A stretch of DNA of 38,323 nucleotides. Source: an uncultured Verrucomicrobia subdivision 3 bacterium. GTDB lineage: Bacteria > Verrucomicrobiota > Verrucomicrobiia > Limisphaerales > UBA11358. The number at the start of each line of letters is the position of its first letter. Position 1 is the stretch's first letter. The translations under genes and the position numbers were made by a program. Of this stretch, positions 23,616 to 33,738 are shown one piece after another. The notes beneath the pieces were generated by a model. The model saw only the letters and a list, made by a program, of their open reading frames with translations. It was not told where the DNA came from and did no database searches. Location of the stretch: positions 1 to 38,323 of the forward strand of contig CAIQWB010000032.1 in assembly GCA_903875465.1 (NCBI GenBank), written 5' to 3'.

Positions 23616-23624
23616 CCCTTGTAT

Positions 23625-24149
23625 ATGAGCGCCAAAAAAATGTGTTCGGTCTGCAAAGAAAAGCCCGCGACGGTTTTTCTGACCAACATTTCCGCGGATG
23701 AAAAGGCCCAAAAGCTGGATTTGTGCGATGATTGTGCCAAGGCCAAGGGCTTGGACACCAATTTGGCGATGTTTCCGTTTGCTGACACGATGCTTGGCCT
23801 GGGGGCGTCGCAGGAAATCGAATCCTCCGGTGGTGGCGTGGAAATCCGCTGTGTGAAATGCGGTTTTACCCAGGCTGATTTTAAGAAATCCGGCCGGCTG
23901 GGTTGTTCGGAATGTTACACCACTTTTGCCGAAGGTCTGGGCGGGTTACTCAAGACGATGCACAAGGGAACGCGGCATGTGGGCAAAGCGCCGGAGGCGT
24001 TGCGCGAATCCCGCGACACGGCGGAACGCGTTAAAGCCTTGCAGAAAAAACTGGCGAAAGCCATTGATGATGAGAATTTTGAGCTGGCGGCAGAATTACG
24101 CGACGAAATCAATCGATTAACCCCGCGTCGGACCGCGAAAAGTGCCTGA
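23625..24149 (+). CDS. mcsA: McsA-like zinc-finger/UVR protein, activator of protein arginine kinase
   Basis: The ATG at 23625 is preferred over an in-frame TTG at 23619. The 174-residue protein has four C-x-x-C pairs (C7/C10, C34/C37, C76/C79, C94/C97), consistent with two zinc sites. A C-terminal UVR motif at about 135-166 (L-Q-K-K-L-A-K-A-I-D-D-E-N-F-E-L-A-A-E-L-R-D-E-I) matches the one in UvrB/C and ClpC. McsA stimulates the arginine kinase McsB and helps deliver substrates to ClpC. It lies 9 bp after ilvE and 39 bp before mcsB. Confidence 0.92.
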   Translation: MSAKKMCSVCKEKPATVFLTNISADEKAQKLDLCDDCAKAKGLDTNLAMFPFADTMLGLGASQEIESSGGGVEIRCVKCGFTQADFKKSGRLGCSECYTTFAEGLGGLLKTMHKGTRHVGKAPEALRESRDTAERVKALQKKLAKAIDDENFELAAELRDEINRLTPRRTAKSA

Positions 24150-24188
24150 GTCAGGAAAGTACCGTAACTGGTTATTGCCATAATTAAA

Positions 24189-25298
24189 ATGCAGATTCAT
24201 TCATTCCTTTCGCCGCCAGCGGAAACCGCGCGGCGGCACGGTCCCAACGACCGGATTGTGATGTCCAGCCGCGTGCGTTTGGCCCGCAACATTCGGGATT
24301 TTGCGTTCCCTGGCTGGGCGAAAAAACCCGAGCGTGTGCGGGTGCTGGACGCCATCCGCCCCGCCGTGGAGAGCCTGCCGGAAATGGCGGATGCTTTTTC
24401 GGAGGCCATGGATAATTTGACCGCGCTGGACAAGCAAATTCTGGTCGAGCGCCATTTGATCAGCCGGGAGCATGCCGCGAAGACGGCCGGCAGTGGCTTG
24501 GTGCTGAATCGCGAGGAGACTTTTTGCGTGATGATAAATGAGGAAGATCATTTGCGCATGCAGGCGCTCCGGCCGGGGCTGCAATTGCGCCAGGCTTGGA
24601 ATGCGATTGATGCCCTGGATACGGCCCTCGAAAAAAAGCTCGATTATGCGTTCAGTAACGAATTGGGTTATCTGACTGCCTGCCCCACGAATTTGGGCAC
24701 GGGGATCCGGGTGAGCGCCATGTTACATCTGCCTGGTTTGGTGCTGGCAGAGCACATCAATCCCATCATTCAATCCGTCAACAAGCTGGGCCTGGCGGTG
24801 CGGGGTTTGTACGGCGAAGGCACGGAAGCGCTGGGGAATGTGTTCCAAGTTTCCAACCAAATGACTTTGGGCGAAAATGAGACGACCATTGTGGAGCGCC
24901 TGGAGAAGGTTCTCTCCCAGATTATTGAACATGAGGAGAATGCCCGGCAGACCCTCATGGAACAAAAGCCCAAGGTGGTTTACAATCATATTGGCCGCGC
25001 CTACGGCACCCTTGCCAACGCCCATAGCATCACGTCCAAGGAGACGATGAACTTCCTCTCGCTGTTGCGTTTGGGCGTGGACATGGGGGTGTTTCCGGGC
25101 ACCGAGCGCTCGCTGGTGGATGAGTTGTTTTTGACGACCCAGCCGGCCCATTTGCAACGCAAACTTTCGGACAAGCTATCGGCCGAGGAACGCGATATTC
25201 TCCGGGCAGACATGTTGCGGGAGAGCTTGAAAAACGTCAGCCGTCCCCTGATCAAAAAAATTGAGCCAAGGGAATTGGACAAACCCACGGATTCGTAG
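24189..25298 (+). CDS. mcsB: Protein arginine kinase McsB
   Basis: This 369-residue guanidino kinase phosphorylates arginine in proteins to mark them for ClpC. Visible motifs: S-S-R-V-R-L-A-R-N (26-34) for ATP binding, C165-P-T-N-L-G-T-G-I-R-V with the catalytic-site Cys, and N-A-H-S-I-T-S-K-E near 278-286. The C-terminal R335-D-I-L-R339-A matches the R-D-x-x-R-A phosphoarginine-binding motif that tunes the McsB kinase, so both domains look intact. The ATG at 24189 gives normal length. clpC starts 14 bp after its stop. Confidence 0.94.
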   Translation: MQIHSFLSPPAETARRHGPNDRIVMSSRVRLARNIRDFAFPGWAKKPERVRVLDAIRPAVESLPEMADAFSEAMDNLTALDKQILVERHLISREHAAKTAGSGLVLNREETFCVMINEEDHLRMQALRPGLQLRQAWNAIDALDTALEKKLDYAFSNELGYLTACPTNLGTGIRVSAMLHLPGLVLAEHINPIIQSVNKLGLAVRGLYGEGTEALGNVFQVSNQMTLGENETTIVERLEKVLSQIIEHEENARQTLMEQKPKVVYNHIGRAYGTLANAHSITSKETMNFLSLLRLGVDMGVFPGTERSLVDELFLTTQPAHLQRKLSDKLSAEERDILRADMLRESLKNVSRPLIKKIEPRELDKPTDS

Positions 25299-25312
25299 CA
25301 AACTATAAGCGT

Positions 25313-27826
25313 ATGAGCGAAGAAGCCATGAGCAATTTCACGCCGCGGGCGCAGCAAGTGCTCGCGCTGGCGCGTAAGGAAGCCGACCGGTTTAACCATA
25401 ATTTTGTCGGCACAGAACATCTTTTACTGGGACTGATCAAGCTGGGGCAGGGCGTGGCGGTGAACGTCCTCCAGAAAATGGGCCTCGATCTGGACACTGT
25501 CCGTCTGGCGGTCGAAAAAGAAGTGGGCACCGGCCCGGACCAGAAATTGGCCGGCAATATTCCCTACACCCCGCGCGTCAAGAAAGTCCTGGCACTGGCC
25601 TCCAAGGAAGCCAAGGCCCTGAATCACACCTACGTGGGCACCGAACATATTTTGCTCGGATTGTTGCGCGAAGGCGATGGGGTTGCCGCGCGGGTGCTGA
25701 AGAATCTCGAGATTGACATCGAGCAAACCCGTCAGGAAATTTTAAAGGAACTCGATCCGAATTTCGCCGCGCAGGAAGAACAGGCCGCCGCCGGGGGAGC
25801 CGCGGGCGAAGGGGTGGAAAAGCCTTCTGCCGATGGCAAAAAGGGCGAGGTGAAAACGCCGGCGCTCAAGGCATTTGGCCGGGATCTCACGGAAATTGCG
25901 CGGAAGGGCGACATGGACCCGGTGATTGGGCGCAAGCACGAAATTGAACGGGTCATTCAAATTCTCTGCCGGCGCACCAAAAACAACCCGGTGCTGCTGG
26001 GGGAAGCCGGGGTGGGTAAAACCGCCATTGTGGAAGGCCTGGCGCAGGAAATCATCAAGGGCAATGTCCCGGAGATTCTCCGCGAAAAACGCGTGATTAC
26101 TCTGGATCTGGCGTTGATGGTGGCGGGGACCAAATATCGCGGCCAGTTCGAGGAGCGCATCAAGGCCGTCATGGATGAAATCCGCCGTGCCAAGAACATC
26201 ATTCTGTTCATTGACGAATTGCACACCATTGTGGGTGCCGGTTCGGCCGAGGGGACCATGGACGCCTCCAACATTATCAAGCCCGCCTTGTCGCGTGGTG
26301 AGATGCAATGCGTGGGGGCCACCACCCTGAATGAGTACCGCAAGTATATCGAGAAGGATGCCGCCTTGGAACGCCGCTTTCAATCGGTCAAAGTGGAGGC
26401 TCCCTCCATTGACGATGCCATCGAAATCTTGAAAGGCCTGCGTCACAAATACGAGGAACATCACAAGGCCGAGTTTACGGACAAGGCGGTTGAAGCGGCC
26501 GTTAAACTTTCGGATCGCTACATTCCCGACCGTTTCCTGCCGGATAAAGCCATTGATGTGCTGGACGAGGCCGGTTCCCGCGCCCGCATCACCACCATGA
26601 CCCGCCCGCCCGAGGTCAAATTGATCGAGGCGGAAATCGAGGACGTGAAGATGCGCAAGGAACGCGCCATTAAAAACCAGGATTTTGAGGGTGCCGCCGC
26701 CATGCGCGACAAGGAAAAGCAGGCGAAGGAAAAGTTGGAAAAGCTGCTCACCGACTGGCGGGCCGCCGGGGAGGAAAAGCGCATTCGCGTGGACGAAGAG
26801 GAAATTTTGCACGTGGTTTCCAAATGGACCGGGGTGCCGCTCCAACGCATGGGGCAGGGCGAGATGCAACGCCTGCTCACCGTTGAGAAGGAGATGGAAA
26901 AGGTCGTTATCGGGCAGCACGATGCCGTCACCTCCATCTGCAAGGCCTTGCGCCGCTCGCGGGCTGACCTGAAGGATCCGCGCCGTCCCATTGGTTGCTT
27001 CCTGCTCCTCGGTCCCACGGGGGTAGGCAAAACCCTGCTGGCCCGCACCCTGGCGGAGAACATGTTTGGCGATGCGAAATCGCTGATTCAACTCGACATG
27101 AGCGAGTACATGGAGAAATTCAATGTGTCCCGGCTGGTCGGGTCACCGCCCGGATATGTCGGGTACGAGGAAGGCGGCCAGTTGACCGAAAAAGTTCGGC
27201 GCAACCCGTATTCCGTGGTGCTGTTCGACGAAATCGAAAAAGCACATCCCGATGTTTGGAACATGCTCTTGCAGATTCTGGAGGAAGGCAAACTGACGGA
27301 CAGTGTCGGCCGCATTGTGAACTTCCGGAACGCCATTATTTTGATGACCTCCAATGTGGGTTCGGACACCATCAAAAAGCAATCCACCATGGGTTTCTCG
27401 ACCATCACGGATGAGAGCACCTATGAGCGCATGCGGGAAAAGATCATCGACGAATCGAAGCGTGTGTTCCGGCCGGAATTCCTGAACCGCCTGGACGATA
27501 TCATCGTGTTCCATTCCTTCACGAAGGCCGATCTCATTCAAATTCTAACGCTGGAAGTGGACAAGGTCATCGAACGCCTCCGGCACAAGAACCTGCACTT
27601 GAAGCTGGATGACAAAGCCAAGGACTTTCTGGTCGACAAGGGTTACGACCCGCAGTACGGTGCCCGGCCCATGCGGCGGGCGGTGGAGCGGTTCTTCGAA
27701 GACCCGCTCGCCGAGGAAATCCTCAAGGGGGTTCTGCACGAAGGTGACCTGATCACGGTTACCATGGACAATGACAAGCTCGTCTTCCAGCAGCCGACCG
27801 CCACCGAAGGCGCCGTGGCCAGCTAA
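25313..27826 (+). CDS. clpC: ATP-dependent Clp protease ATPase subunit ClpC
   Basis: This 837-residue AAA+ unfoldase begins with a double Clp-N repeat (about 7-150; [10 protein letters not shown] and [10 protein letters not shown]) that docks phosphoarginine substrates. D1 has Walker A G230-E-A-G-V-G-K-T and a D-E-L-H-T Walker B. The UVR/M-domain is at about 440-475 ([13 protein letters not shown]). D2 has Walker A G567-P-T-G-V-G-K-T. [11 protein letters not shown] pore loop precedes the C-terminal R-P-M-R-R-A-V-E sensor region. It feeds ClpP. No ctsR repressor gene is in the operon. A second in-frame ATG at 25328 is a possible start. A terminator follows at 27848. Confidence 0.95.
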
Positions 27827-28224: not shown

Positions 28225-29082
28225 ATGCTTTTTGCTTTTACCAAATACCATGCGCTGGGCAACGATTATATTGTCATCGACCCGCAGGACCTGCCGGCTC
28301 CGCTGACAGTGGAGCAAGTGCGCACCATCTGCCATCGTAATTTTGGCATTGGCTCGGACGGAATTCTTCTGGGACCGCTCCCGGCGGTGAATGCCCAGTT
28401 CGGGTTGAAAATTTATAACCCTGATGGGAGCGAGGCGGAAAAAAGCGGCAACGGGCTGCGGATTTTCTCCCGCTATTTATGGGATCGCAAGCTGGTGGGG
28501 CATGATGAATTCACCATCCAGACTGCTGGCGGCCTGGTCCGGTCCACGGTATTTTCCGGTGGCACCTCGGTGCAGGTGGAGATGGGCACCGTCAGCTTTT
28601 GGAATGAGCAAATCCCCGTGGTGGGTCCATCGCGCGAAGTGATCAATGAACCCATTATCGCCGACGGACGGGAATTCACCTTCTGCGCGGCCACCATTGG
28701 CAACCCGCATTGTGTGGTGCCTTTACCGGAAATCAGCTCCGCCCTGGCACATCGCTTTGGCCCGCATTTGGAAAAGCATCCGTTCTTCCCTCGCAAGACG
28801 AATGTGCAATTCATGAAAGTGCTGGACCGCGCTAATATTCAAATCGAGATTTGGGAACGTGGGGCTGGGTACACTCTGGCCAGCGGCAGCAGCAGCAGTG
28901 CCGCCGCCTCGGTGGCGCACAAACTGGGTTTGTGCGACCGGCAGATTTCCGTGCACATGCCTGGCGGGGTCATCGCCATCGACATTGGCGATGGCTTTGC
29001 CGTTCGCATGACGGGCGGTGTGACCCGGGTGGCCGAGGGGGTTATGGCCGCCGAAATGGTGCAGCAAGTTTTAGCGGGCTGA
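28225..29082 (+). CDS. dapF: DapF-family protein with both catalytic cysteines replaced by serine
   Basis: This 285-residue protein has the two-lobed DapF fold throughout: Y-H-A-L-G-N-D-Y-I-V-I-D near the start, G-I-G-S-D-G-I-L-L-G, N-P-D-G-S-E-A-E-K-S74-G-N-G-L-R, I-G-N-P-H-C, T-N-V-Q-F and E-R-G-A-G-Y-T-L-A-S220-G-S-S-S-S. In true diaminopimelate epimerases these two sites are Cys (M-C-G-N-G and T-x-A-C-G-T-G), acting as base and acid. Both codons here are AGC. The residue after E-R-G-A-G is Tyr rather than Glu. The substrate-binding Asn residues are kept. It may be a Ser-type epimerase, or act on another substrate as PrpF-like relatives do. The symbol reflects family, not proven activity. 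The ATG at 28225 is preferred to a TTG at 28216. Confidence 0.85.
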   Translation: MLFAFTKYHALGNDYIVIDPQDLPAPLTVEQVRTICHRNFGIGSDGILLGPLPAVNAQFGLKIYNPDGSEAEKSGNGLRIFSRYLWDRKLVGHDEFTIQTAGGLVRSTVFSGGTSVQVEMGTVSFWNEQIPVVGPSREVINEPIIADGREFTFCAATIGNPHCVVPLPEISSALAHRFGPHLEKHPFFPRKTNVQFMKVLDRANIQIEIWERGAGYTLASGSSSSAAASVAHKLGLCDRQISVHMPGGVIAIDIGDGFAVRMTGGVTRVAEGVMAAEMVQQVLAG

Positions 29083-32110: not shown

Positions 32111-33445
32111 TCAAAGATCGCGAATCATGAAGGTGACCTCAGCCTCGCTTACGATGTCGCCGGCCACTTTGCAAATGCCCTTGGCTTTGCCAATTTTACC
32201 GCGAACCTTGGTCAACTCGACTTCGATGACCAACACGTCACCAGGAACGACCGGTTTGCGCCATTTTACCTCCTCGGCTGACATGAAATAAGCCACTTGA
32301 TTTACCGTCTCACCCTTTTTAATCAAAACGATGCCGGCCACCTGGGCGATGGCTTCCAATTGCAAGACGCCGGGCATGATCGGATGGCTCGGGAAATGCC
32401 CTTCAAAAAACGGCTCGTTCATTGACACATTTTTGACCGCAACGATCTTATTGCCCTCGATTTTCAATACCCGGTCCACGAGCAAAAAAGGCGGCCGATG
32501 GGGCAGCATTTTCATGATCTGCTCAATGTTCATGGCACCATCCTCAGCAGCCGGGGTTTCCGGCACCGCGATTTTGGCCGGCGGCGGGGCGAAAGTCTGG
32601 GCCGCCCGCAAAGGCTTGTTCATCTGGGCCACAATCAGCCGGGCAAACTCACAATTAGCCCCGTGGCTCGGTTTGACGGCGATCAAATGGCCGCGCACGG
32701 CCCGGCCGGTCAGGGACAGATCCCCCAAGATATCGAGCATCTTATGACGCACAAATTCCTCAGGGTAACGAAGCGGTTCCGTGGTGAGCACGGCGTCGTC
32801 GCGGATCACCACGGCGTTCTCCAAGCTCCCCCCTTTGATCAGCCCGTTTTTAATGAGGTACTCAATTTCCTCGAAAAAGCAAAATGTGCGGGCGTGCGCC
32901 AGTTCCTTCTCCCACGTCTGGGGCGTGACTTCAGTGCTGTAAAATTGGGTAAATCGCCCTTGTTTATCGGCGCTGGTGCAGGTGATTTTAAACGATTCGT
33001 CGGGAAAGAGCGTCATGACGGTCTCGCCCAGGCGCAATTCGATCGGCTCGGTGGGCGTATAAAACTCCCGCTTTTCGGGCAAGGCATTAATGCCGACCCC
33101 TTGGATTAGCTTGCAAAATTCCCGCGAGCTGCCATCCGCAATCGGGGGTTCATTGGCGTCCAGTTCAATGATGGCATTGTCGATGCCATAACCTGCGAGG
33201 GCGGCGAGCACATGTTCGACGGTATGAATTTTAACATTGCCCCTGGCGATGGTCGTGGAACGGTTGGTTTCGCTCACGTTTTCCACCCGGGCTTCGATTT
33301 CCGGTTTCCCTTCCAAATCCACACGACGGAAGCGCACCCCGCTGTTGGCGGGGGCGGGCAGGATGGTCATGTTCACCCGGTTGCCACTATGGAGGCCAAT
33401 ACCGGAAAAGCTGGCGGAACGATTAAGCGTCTGCTGATTGAGCAC
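32111..33445 (-). CDS. lpxC-fabZ: Bifunctional LpxC-FabZ fusion (UDP-3-O-acyl-GlcNAc deacetylase / 3-hydroxyacyl-ACP dehydratase)
   Basis: A GTG start at 33445 gives V-L-N-Q-Q-T-L-N-R-S-A-S-F-S-G, matching the usual LpxC opening; an in-frame TTG at 33481 is the alternative. Residues 1-290 are LpxC with its zinc ligands H78 (E77-H), H234 and D238 (V-R-H-K-M-L-D) and the catalytic H261. A Pro/Ala linker (285-305) joins a FabZ hot-dog domain at 305-444 with L-P-H-R-P-P-F, H350 in F-F-E-G-H-F-P and E364 in V-L-Q-L-E. LpxC commits to lipid A synthesis; FabZ dehydrates hydroxyacyl-ACP and so competes for the same acyl pool. This fusion is known in Bacteroidota and relatives. lpxA follows in the same operon. 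Confidence 0.95.
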   Translation of the reverse strand: MLNQQTLNRSASFSGIGLHSGNRVNMTILPAPANSGVRFRRVDLEGKPEIEARVENVSETNRSTTIARGNVKIHTVEHVLAALAGYGIDNAIIELDANEPPIADGSSREFCKLIQGVGINALPEKREFYTPTEPIELRLGETVMTLFPDESFKITCTSADKQGRFTQFYSTEVTPQTWEKELAHARTFCFFEEIEYLIKNGLIKGGSLENAVVIRDDAVLTTEPLRYPEEFVRHKMLDILGDLSLTGRAVRGHLIAVKPSHGANCEFARLIVAQMNKPLRAAQTFAPPPAKIAVPETPAAEDGAMNIEQIMKMLPHRPPFLLVDRVLKIEGNKIVAVKNVSMNEPFFEGHFPSHPIMPGVLQLEAIAQVAGIVLIKKGETVNQVAYFMSAEEVKWRKPVVPGDVLVIEVELTKVRGKIGKAKGICKVAGDIVSEAEVTFMIRDL

Positions 33446-33738
33446 CCAGAGATTAGACCAAATCCAAGGCCGGATTGGCAAGTCCAGTTACAACCCGGCA
33501 GCGGGCGGAGCCCGTCTATCGGGATCACGCCAGTGGCACTTTTGTTGGTGGAAATATAAGTCTTTATTATGGAAAGTCAGAAGTCGCCAATTGACAAAGT
33601 TACCCACCCCAGCCAAAATTAAGAATCGAAATAGGTTTAAAAATGTATGGCCGCTCGCCTTTCGTCCTGGCACAACACTGCATACCAGAGCGGCTTGAGG
33701 AAGCGATGATTCAACCTGGCACGATCCTCTCGGATTAA
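33446..33738. other. Divergent intergenic region, 293 bp
   Basis: No gene seen. The sequence is AT-rich in its right half. TTGACA at 33591-33596 could be a rightward -35 box for the 33739 gene, but no convincing -10 box at 16-18 bp was found. The left side must hold the lpxC-fabZ promoter. Confidence 0.35.

Follow-up and report, generated by a model that had tools for sequence, protein, structure and literature searches.

A DapF subfamily with serine at both catalytic cysteine positions: a candidate diaminopimelate epimerase of Verrucomicrobiota and some cyanobacteria

The activity of cofactor-independent racemases of the diaminopimelate epimerase (DapF) fold is accounted for by a thiolate/thiol pair. 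O-ureidoserine racemase, which shares this fold, likewise carries a pair of cysteines. The histidine racemases HisR and CntK, also of DapF fold, are described in the available part of PMC11602996 as cofactor-independent enzymes with a cysteine pair, and in HisR the single changes C67S and C209S were found to cut turnover strongly; Cys-to-Ser replacement has furthermore been used to hinder catalysis for crystals, according to the accessible portion of PMC12039745. The PrpF, PhzF and proline racemase/hydroxyproline families belong to the same fold class, and the excerpt at hand of PMC5690661 indicates that C107 of PrpF is the equivalent of the DapF base and that Lys73 of PrpF matches the catalytic Glu of PhzF. 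The closest described systems are the DapFs themselves (TIGR00652), with solved representatives from Anabaena (9mro), Arabidopsis (3ejx) and P. aeruginosa (8qzy).

A homologue of these enzymes, P0001, is encoded in the window, that is, the whole stretch of 38,323 nucleotides analysed here, which belongs to a verrucomicrobial genome of 5.32 Mb (96% complete). It has the fold and length of DapF, is 34-36% identical to the three representatives just named, and differs from DapF, HisR and CntK alike in having serine where these carry the catalytic cysteine pair. A search limited to open-licence PMC literature found no published description of such a Ser/Ser DapF. We infer that this protein is the LL-/meso-diaminopimelate (DAP) epimerase of its host, with DAP bound as in DapF and a rebuilt acid-base site, a predicted activity that we regard as fairly probable.

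Catalytic and substrate-binding residues

The features of the gene to which the argument refers are the following, with counts taken from 134 Ser/Ser and 63 Cys/Cys protein sequences.

28225..29082, + strand: Ser/Ser DapF homologue P0001, 285 aa plus stop (open frame; profile, alignment and AF2 model)
28330..28332, + strand: Cys36 codon (Cys in 134/134 Ser/Ser and 42/63 Cys/Cys rows)
28441..28443, + strand: Lys73 codon AAA (Lys in 134/134 Ser/Ser rows; Met in 60/63 Cys/Cys rows)
28444..28446, + strand: Ser74 codon AGC, first catalytic Cys position (frame, alignment, loci counts, codon survey)
28711..28713, + strand: Cys163 codon (Cys in 132/134 Ser/Ser and 12/63 Cys/Cys rows)
28807..28809, + strand: Gln195 codon (Gln in 134/134 Ser/Ser rows; Glu, Asn or Asp in Cys/Cys rows)
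28846..28848, + strand: Glu208 codon (Glu in 133/134 Ser/Ser rows; Arg in 62/63 Cys/Cys rows; a charge reversal)
28855..28860, + strand: Glu211-Arg212, distal-end DAP ligands, kept (alignment; ligands from Anabaena DapF, available part of PMC12039745)
28870..28872, + strand: Tyr216 codon (Tyr in 133/134 Ser/Ser rows; mostly Glu, Ile or Val in Cys/Cys rows)
28882..28884, + strand: Ser220 codon AGC, second catalytic Cys position (frame, alignment, loci counts, codon survey)

Directly upstream of this gene, McsA-like (115.5 bits, cut-off 210), McsB arginine kinase and ClpC/ClpB-like genes lie in a row at 23619-27826 (+), and further along the window an LpxC-FabZ fusion gene adjoins LpxA (32111-33481, -).

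P0001 passes the curated equivalog threshold of TIGR00652 (228.7 bits, cut-off 114.65; NCBIfam profile search), and PF01678 is its sole Pfam match at E values up to 0.001. Within the same limit its NCBIfam matches are TIGR00652 and NF038284 only, the latter at 69.9 bits against a cut-off of 350, and no match to the PrpF, PhzF or proline racemase family profiles was found at E 0.001 in either Pfam or NCBIfam, the shared fold class notwithstanding. The AF2 model (mean pLDDT 92.0) has predicted helices beginning at residues 75 and 221, and its best Foldseek matches are DapFs (8qzy, TM 0.90; 5ha4, TM 0.92). All of ranks 1-26 are DapF entries save O-ureidoserine racemase 7vdy at ranks 7 and 15, with PhzF, proline racemase and hydroxyproline entries at far lower ranks and 12-16% identity; the predicted fold of P0001 is that of DapF. 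In alignment, S74 and S220 coincide with the cysteines of the '..EMCGNG..' and '..TLACGTG..' motifs of solved DapFs. The initial annotation had read serine for both catalytic cysteines from the AGC codons at 28444 and 28882, and the frame, the profile match and this alignment agree with that reading. The catalytic Cys pair is absent from P0001 and from 184/184 loci of its subfamily. Classified by sequence, the Ser/Ser form is thus a variant of DapF which, judged by its catalytic pair, is not a two-cysteine DapF.

Residue comparisons rested on 246 motif-filtered rows, which reduce to the 197 distinct strings counted above, a few genes being perhaps present twice with different ends. Lys73, Ser74 and Ser220 each occur in 134/134 Ser/Ser rows, as does Ser223, where 63/63 Cys/Cys rows have Gly. 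Beside the exchange of the Cys pair for a Ser pair, the Ser/Ser form therefore differs from DapF by Lys73 (Met in DapF), Gln195, Glu208 (Arg in DapF), Tyr216 and Ser223, and many further positions also differ between the two groups. The DAP ligands tell a different story. According to the available part of PMC12039745, Anabaena DapF holds DAP through Asn13, Asn66, Asn164, Asn197, Glu215 and Arg216, with main-chain and Thr226 contacts; these residues correspond by alignment to Asn13, Asn65, Asn160, Asn193, Glu211, Arg212 and Ser222 of P0001. N65, N160, N193, E211 and R212 are found in 134/134 Ser/Ser rows and N13 in 133, with one gap, while position 222 is Ser in 130 and Thr in 4; N13, N65, N76, N193, E211 and R212 are identical in the Ser/Ser and Cys/Cys groups, and His162 is likewise common to DapF and the Ser/Ser form. 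Because the DAP ligands have been kept while the neighbours of the catalytic motifs have changed, the substrate pocket resembles the DapF pocket, and the acid-base site looks rebuilt. The earlier view that everything apart from the two serines is intact holds, accordingly, for the DAP-binding residues and fails for Lys73, Gln195, Glu208, Tyr216, Ser223 and many other positions.

The catalytic sulfurs of Anabaena DapF have no basic residue within 4 A (PMC12039745, in the part available), whereas in the Ser/Ser form a Lys stands immediately before Ser74 in sequence. This residue and Lys73 of PrpF are not counterparts: the PrpF residue matches the catalytic Glu of PhzF, and the Lys73 and C107 on which PrpF relies stand at other positions (available excerpt of PMC5690661). 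The analogy with PrpF drawn in the initial annotation is consequently a weak one.

A DAP epimerase whose thiol has moved elsewhere, an instance of the third residue foreseen in the initial annotation, was also considered, the candidate positions being Cys36, which is invariant, and Cys163, which is nearly so and adjoins the invariant His162. The invariance of Cys36 and the much higher frequency of Cys163 in the Ser/Ser form would suit such an arrangement; however, two Ser/Ser rows (L197, L198) have Val at 163, Cys36 is frequent in Cys/Cys proteins too, where it is not catalytic, and a displaced thiol leaves the invariance of Ser74 and Ser220 without a reason. We consider this explanation very unlikely.

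Descent and distribution of the Ser/Ser subfamily

Among 266 fetched loci with a DapF, 184 carry Lys73-Ser74/Ser220, 82 are Cys/Cys and none is mixed. This set was free of any motif filter and is the only one able to show mixed Cys/Ser types; it is no census, since some genes occur at two or more loci and the choice of many loci for their similarity to P0001 inflates the proportion of Ser/Ser. Within the fetched material, the 112 loci with a match that come from the 80 best relatives in named genomes and from other searches (some genes twice) are all Ser/Ser. Across 137 distinct gene sequences of the Ser/Ser type, the codon for Ser74 is AGY in 95 and TCN in 42, and that for Ser220 is AGY in 52 and TCN in 85. 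An exchange between AGY and TCN is impossible by a single base change and needs either a double change or a step via Thr or Cys. Because both codon classes are in use and are not interchangeable by a single base change, it is serine itself that is being kept. Sequencing error, chance and pseudogene decay as origins of S74 and S220 are ruled out by the loci counts and the two codon classes, and the judgement of the initial annotation that an error at both codons was improbable stands.

Dead catalytic sites usually drift, and the invariance of Lys73, Ser74 and Ser220 with both codon classes in use argues against a catalytically dead DapF that is retained for binding or regulation, for instance as a partner of RppH, with meso-DAP coming from elsewhere. 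The usual presence of the gene as sole copy and the scarcity of Ddh, both documented below, also count against this possibility, which we hold to be distinctly improbable, although E. coli DapF does form complexes with RppH, to judge from PDB entry titles, and Cys-to-Ser change is as damaging to HisR as noted above (PMC11602996, available part).

The phylogenetic comparison of Ser/Ser with Cys/Cys DapFs that had been proposed at the outset was made with quick maximum-likelihood trees of 106 rows. One branch, with SH-aLRT 100, has all 55 Ser/Ser rows on the same side, and this value is retained when 17 catalytic and neighbouring columns are omitted. The 106 rows were taken from the 197 by removing those with at least 80% identity to a retained row or fewer than 220 aa, and the trees are unrooted; the branch is compatible with a single origin of the Ser/Ser form.

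DapF is carried by 261/288 Verrucomicrobiota genomes, and the Ser/Ser type by 58 of them when at least 48% identity is taken as the criterion; residues were read in 48 of these 58, and the other 10 were assigned by their 58-61% identity to P0001 alone. Exactly one TIGR00652 match is present in 54/58 Ser/Ser genomes and two in the remaining G177, G248, G281 and G338, the second one of G281 being Cys/Cys. The window's own class is mixed, as G286 is Cys/Cys though its family code (f5) is that of many Ser/Ser genomes. DapF matches are absent from 27/288 Verrucomicrobiota genomes, and among the 20 of these that were listed 11 come from a single genus code (group f17/g56). Viral copies were not found with peptide patterns from P0001, and plasmid relatives amounted to 117 records, all below 60% identity, the best among the matches listed being 40.2%.

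The search for a second, Cys/Cys DapF in the window's genome, suggested in the initial annotation, found none. The next best PF01678 match, below cut-off, is a gene on contig 28 (L115, 1955-2908), which was rejected as a second DapF: it is a homologue of 4-hydroxyproline epimerase (424.9 bits on that model, under its cut-off of 450), and a match on contig 5 is weak (E 0.195). It could be argued that the contig 28 protein, which keeps Cys at both motifs, moonlights as the DAP epimerase, but its score and its position beside a gene for a DadA-type-like oxidase (judged by eye) fit hydroxyproline breakdown, so that such a role is extremely improbable.

In cyanobacteria the distribution is sparser. 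With a completeness filter of 90, a match at 60-69% identity is present in 7/386 genomes and reads as Ser/Ser in every one; a further DapF match accompanies it in five of the seven (at 35-37% identity for the four listed), and in G429 and G585, two of the 386, the Ser/Ser form is the only one. Within Nostocales, 8/8 genomes have both Cys/Cys and Ser/Ser DapF, and Dulcicalothrix has two Ser/Ser copies. Nostoc paralogues go by the labels DapF1 and DapF2. The Nostocales copies group with Pedosphaera-type Verrucomicrobiota (SH-aLRT 85, quick tree), a placement that would fit gene transfer. No dap gene was found among the 12 annotated genes flanking Nostocales copies (L060, L062, L073, L075, L079), which share no theme.

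Pathway genes, neighbours and the use of meso-DAP

The genome from which the window derives encodes DapL on contig 60 (TIGR03542; 580.5 bits, cut-off 364.7) and LysA on contig 99 (462.8 bits, cut-off 297.9), and a profile search of it gave no match to Ddh. Ddh is present in 3/80 Ser/Ser genomes (G081, G143, G162), and a Ddh bypass was accordingly rejected as the usual source of meso-DAP. Five loci (L031, L036, L039, L047, L049) have dapA and dapB after the Ser/Ser gene, an order shared with the Cys/Cys dapF of L171, and a sixth (L052) has dapA there; together with DapL and LysA in the window's genome, this context places the gene in the DAP/lysine pathway, as for DapF. These six were found among the 75 named-genome loci, out of 80, whose downstream sequence extends for at least 1 kb, and in the other 69/75 neither dapA nor dapB was found downstream within the stretch covered; nor were dap genes found among the profiled neighbours of the window copy. 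Pathway genes are patchy in some relatives, G235, G191, G165, G194 and G146 having no TIGR03542 DapL over cut-off, and G154, G235, G191, G197, G165 and G194 having LysA-like matches only below cut-off.

These data bear on the choice, left open by the initial annotation, between a Ser/Ser epimerase and an enzyme that does something else. In related folds, changes at catalytic positions go with other reactions, and the protein might act on DAP or a close relative by one-sided exchange, elimination or isomerisation, meso-DAP then coming from an enzyme of unrelated origin, for instance a PLP-dependent racemase. The coexistence of both forms in Nostocales would suit such a division, and isomerisation by PrpF is known to need Lys73, and C107 for growth on propionate (PMC5690661, in the part available). 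On the other hand, the Ser/Ser form is the sole DapF in 54/58 Ser/Ser Verrucomicrobiota genomes and in two cyanobacteria, dapA or dapA-dapB lies beside it at six loci, and P0001 keeps the DAP ligands and has no PrpF or proline racemase match. We therefore regard another reaction as unlikely; of the two original options, the genome evidence (usual sole DapF, DapL with LysA, no Ddh, dapA-dapB neighbours, kept DAP ligands) favours the epimerase.

The use to which meso-DAP is put appears to vary with the lineage. All 8 genomes of the window's genus contain only three Mur-ligase-type genes, compared with 6 in each of two genomes from other families; in the window's genome these lie on contigs 24, 33 and 148 (L298, L302, L318). 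MurF-type and Mpl-type genes are present in 8/8, and the third gene is FolC in the window's genome (L318), the only one of the eight profiled for FolC. The Mpl of this genome scores 454.7 bits (cut-off 388.7), and the same protein reaches 314.2 on MurC, under the cut-off of 335.1. MurC, MurD and MurE were not found in the 8 genomes, TIGR01085 MurE over cut-off being seen in 0/5 of those tested, and a literature search found no paper on Mur ligase loss in Verrucomicrobiota. With three Mur-ligase-type genes and no MurC, MurD or MurE, the meso-DAP step of this lineage therefore probably serves lysine, and the significance for peptidoglycan proposed in the initial annotation is here probably secondary. 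Any peptidoglycan would then depend on Mpl salvaging tripeptide, and the gene content suggests that the genus is either wall-less or builds peptidoglycan from salvaged Ala-Glu-DAP tripeptide via Mpl plus MurF.

The DNPR motif of MurE, whatever its meaning for the amino acid added, need not separate LL- from meso-DAP; it is present in 20/20 MurE matches over cut-off from 24 genomes, Cys/Cys ones among them. Three things speak against a cell that does without meso-DAP, in which LysA and MurE would take LL-DAP and the Ser/Ser protein would play some secondary part: these matches, with the reservation just made; the LysA of the window's genome, which belongs by score to the standard family; and the invariant active site of the Ser/Ser proteins. 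In favour of this quite unlikely alternative is the DAP of Opitutaceae, in which, according to the available part of PMC5303756, DAP amounts to 3-7 nmol per mg compared with 63 in E. coli, about tenfold lower, DL-DAP was unseen by TLC and ornithine is also present. The Opitutaceae-labelled loci in our set are Ser/Ser; they were chosen by similarity to P0001, and the Lacunisphaera DapF of PMC5303756 may differ. DAP stereochemistry in Opitutaceae and related Verrucomicrobiota is the weakest link in the case for an epimerase.

Proposed chemistry and implications

If the Ser/Ser DapF is indeed a DAP epimerase, DAP would be held as in DapF, with the Asn, Glu and Arg ligands unchanged and each serine placed immediately ahead of a predicted helix, and the alpha-proton would be removed and returned by something other than the usual thiolate/thiol pair. 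From the conserved residues, the acid-base pair would be the two serines, with the invariant Lys73 as their activator, possibly in partnership with the near-invariant Glu208; alternatively, Lys73 itself may act on one face. In the window's genome LysA would turn the product into lysine; in relatives with MurE, the product would also go into peptidoglycan. Taken as a whole, the Ser/Ser DapFs are probably a family, widespread in bacteria, that carries out the reaction of DapF by different chemistry. The more specific proposal, that a cofactor-independent epimerase inverting the alpha-carbon with a Ser/Ser pair and an invariant Lys (and Glu) took the place of DapF in much of Verrucomicrobiota and some cyanobacteria, is put forward tentatively, at a confidence just short of even.

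Several observations count against an epimerase, among them the effects of Cys-to-Ser change in HisR and in the crystal work, the acidity of serine, which is much weaker than that of a thiol, and the Nostocales gene context with its coexisting Cys/Cys DapF. To these are added the 69/75 loci without dapA or dapB, the patchy DapL and LysA, the second DapF of G281, the DAP of Opitutaceae and the presence of Cys36 and Cys163.

If true, a natural subfamily without a thiol at either catalytic position, usually present as sole copy, would show that the chemistry of this fold can be arranged otherwise. Thiol-directed inhibitors of DapF, aziDAP among them, should moreover be less effective against a Ser/Ser enzyme. 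Reports on DAP in Opitutaceae and their verrucomicrobial relatives disagree with one another, and the finding also bears on meso-DAP and lysine synthesis in these bacteria.
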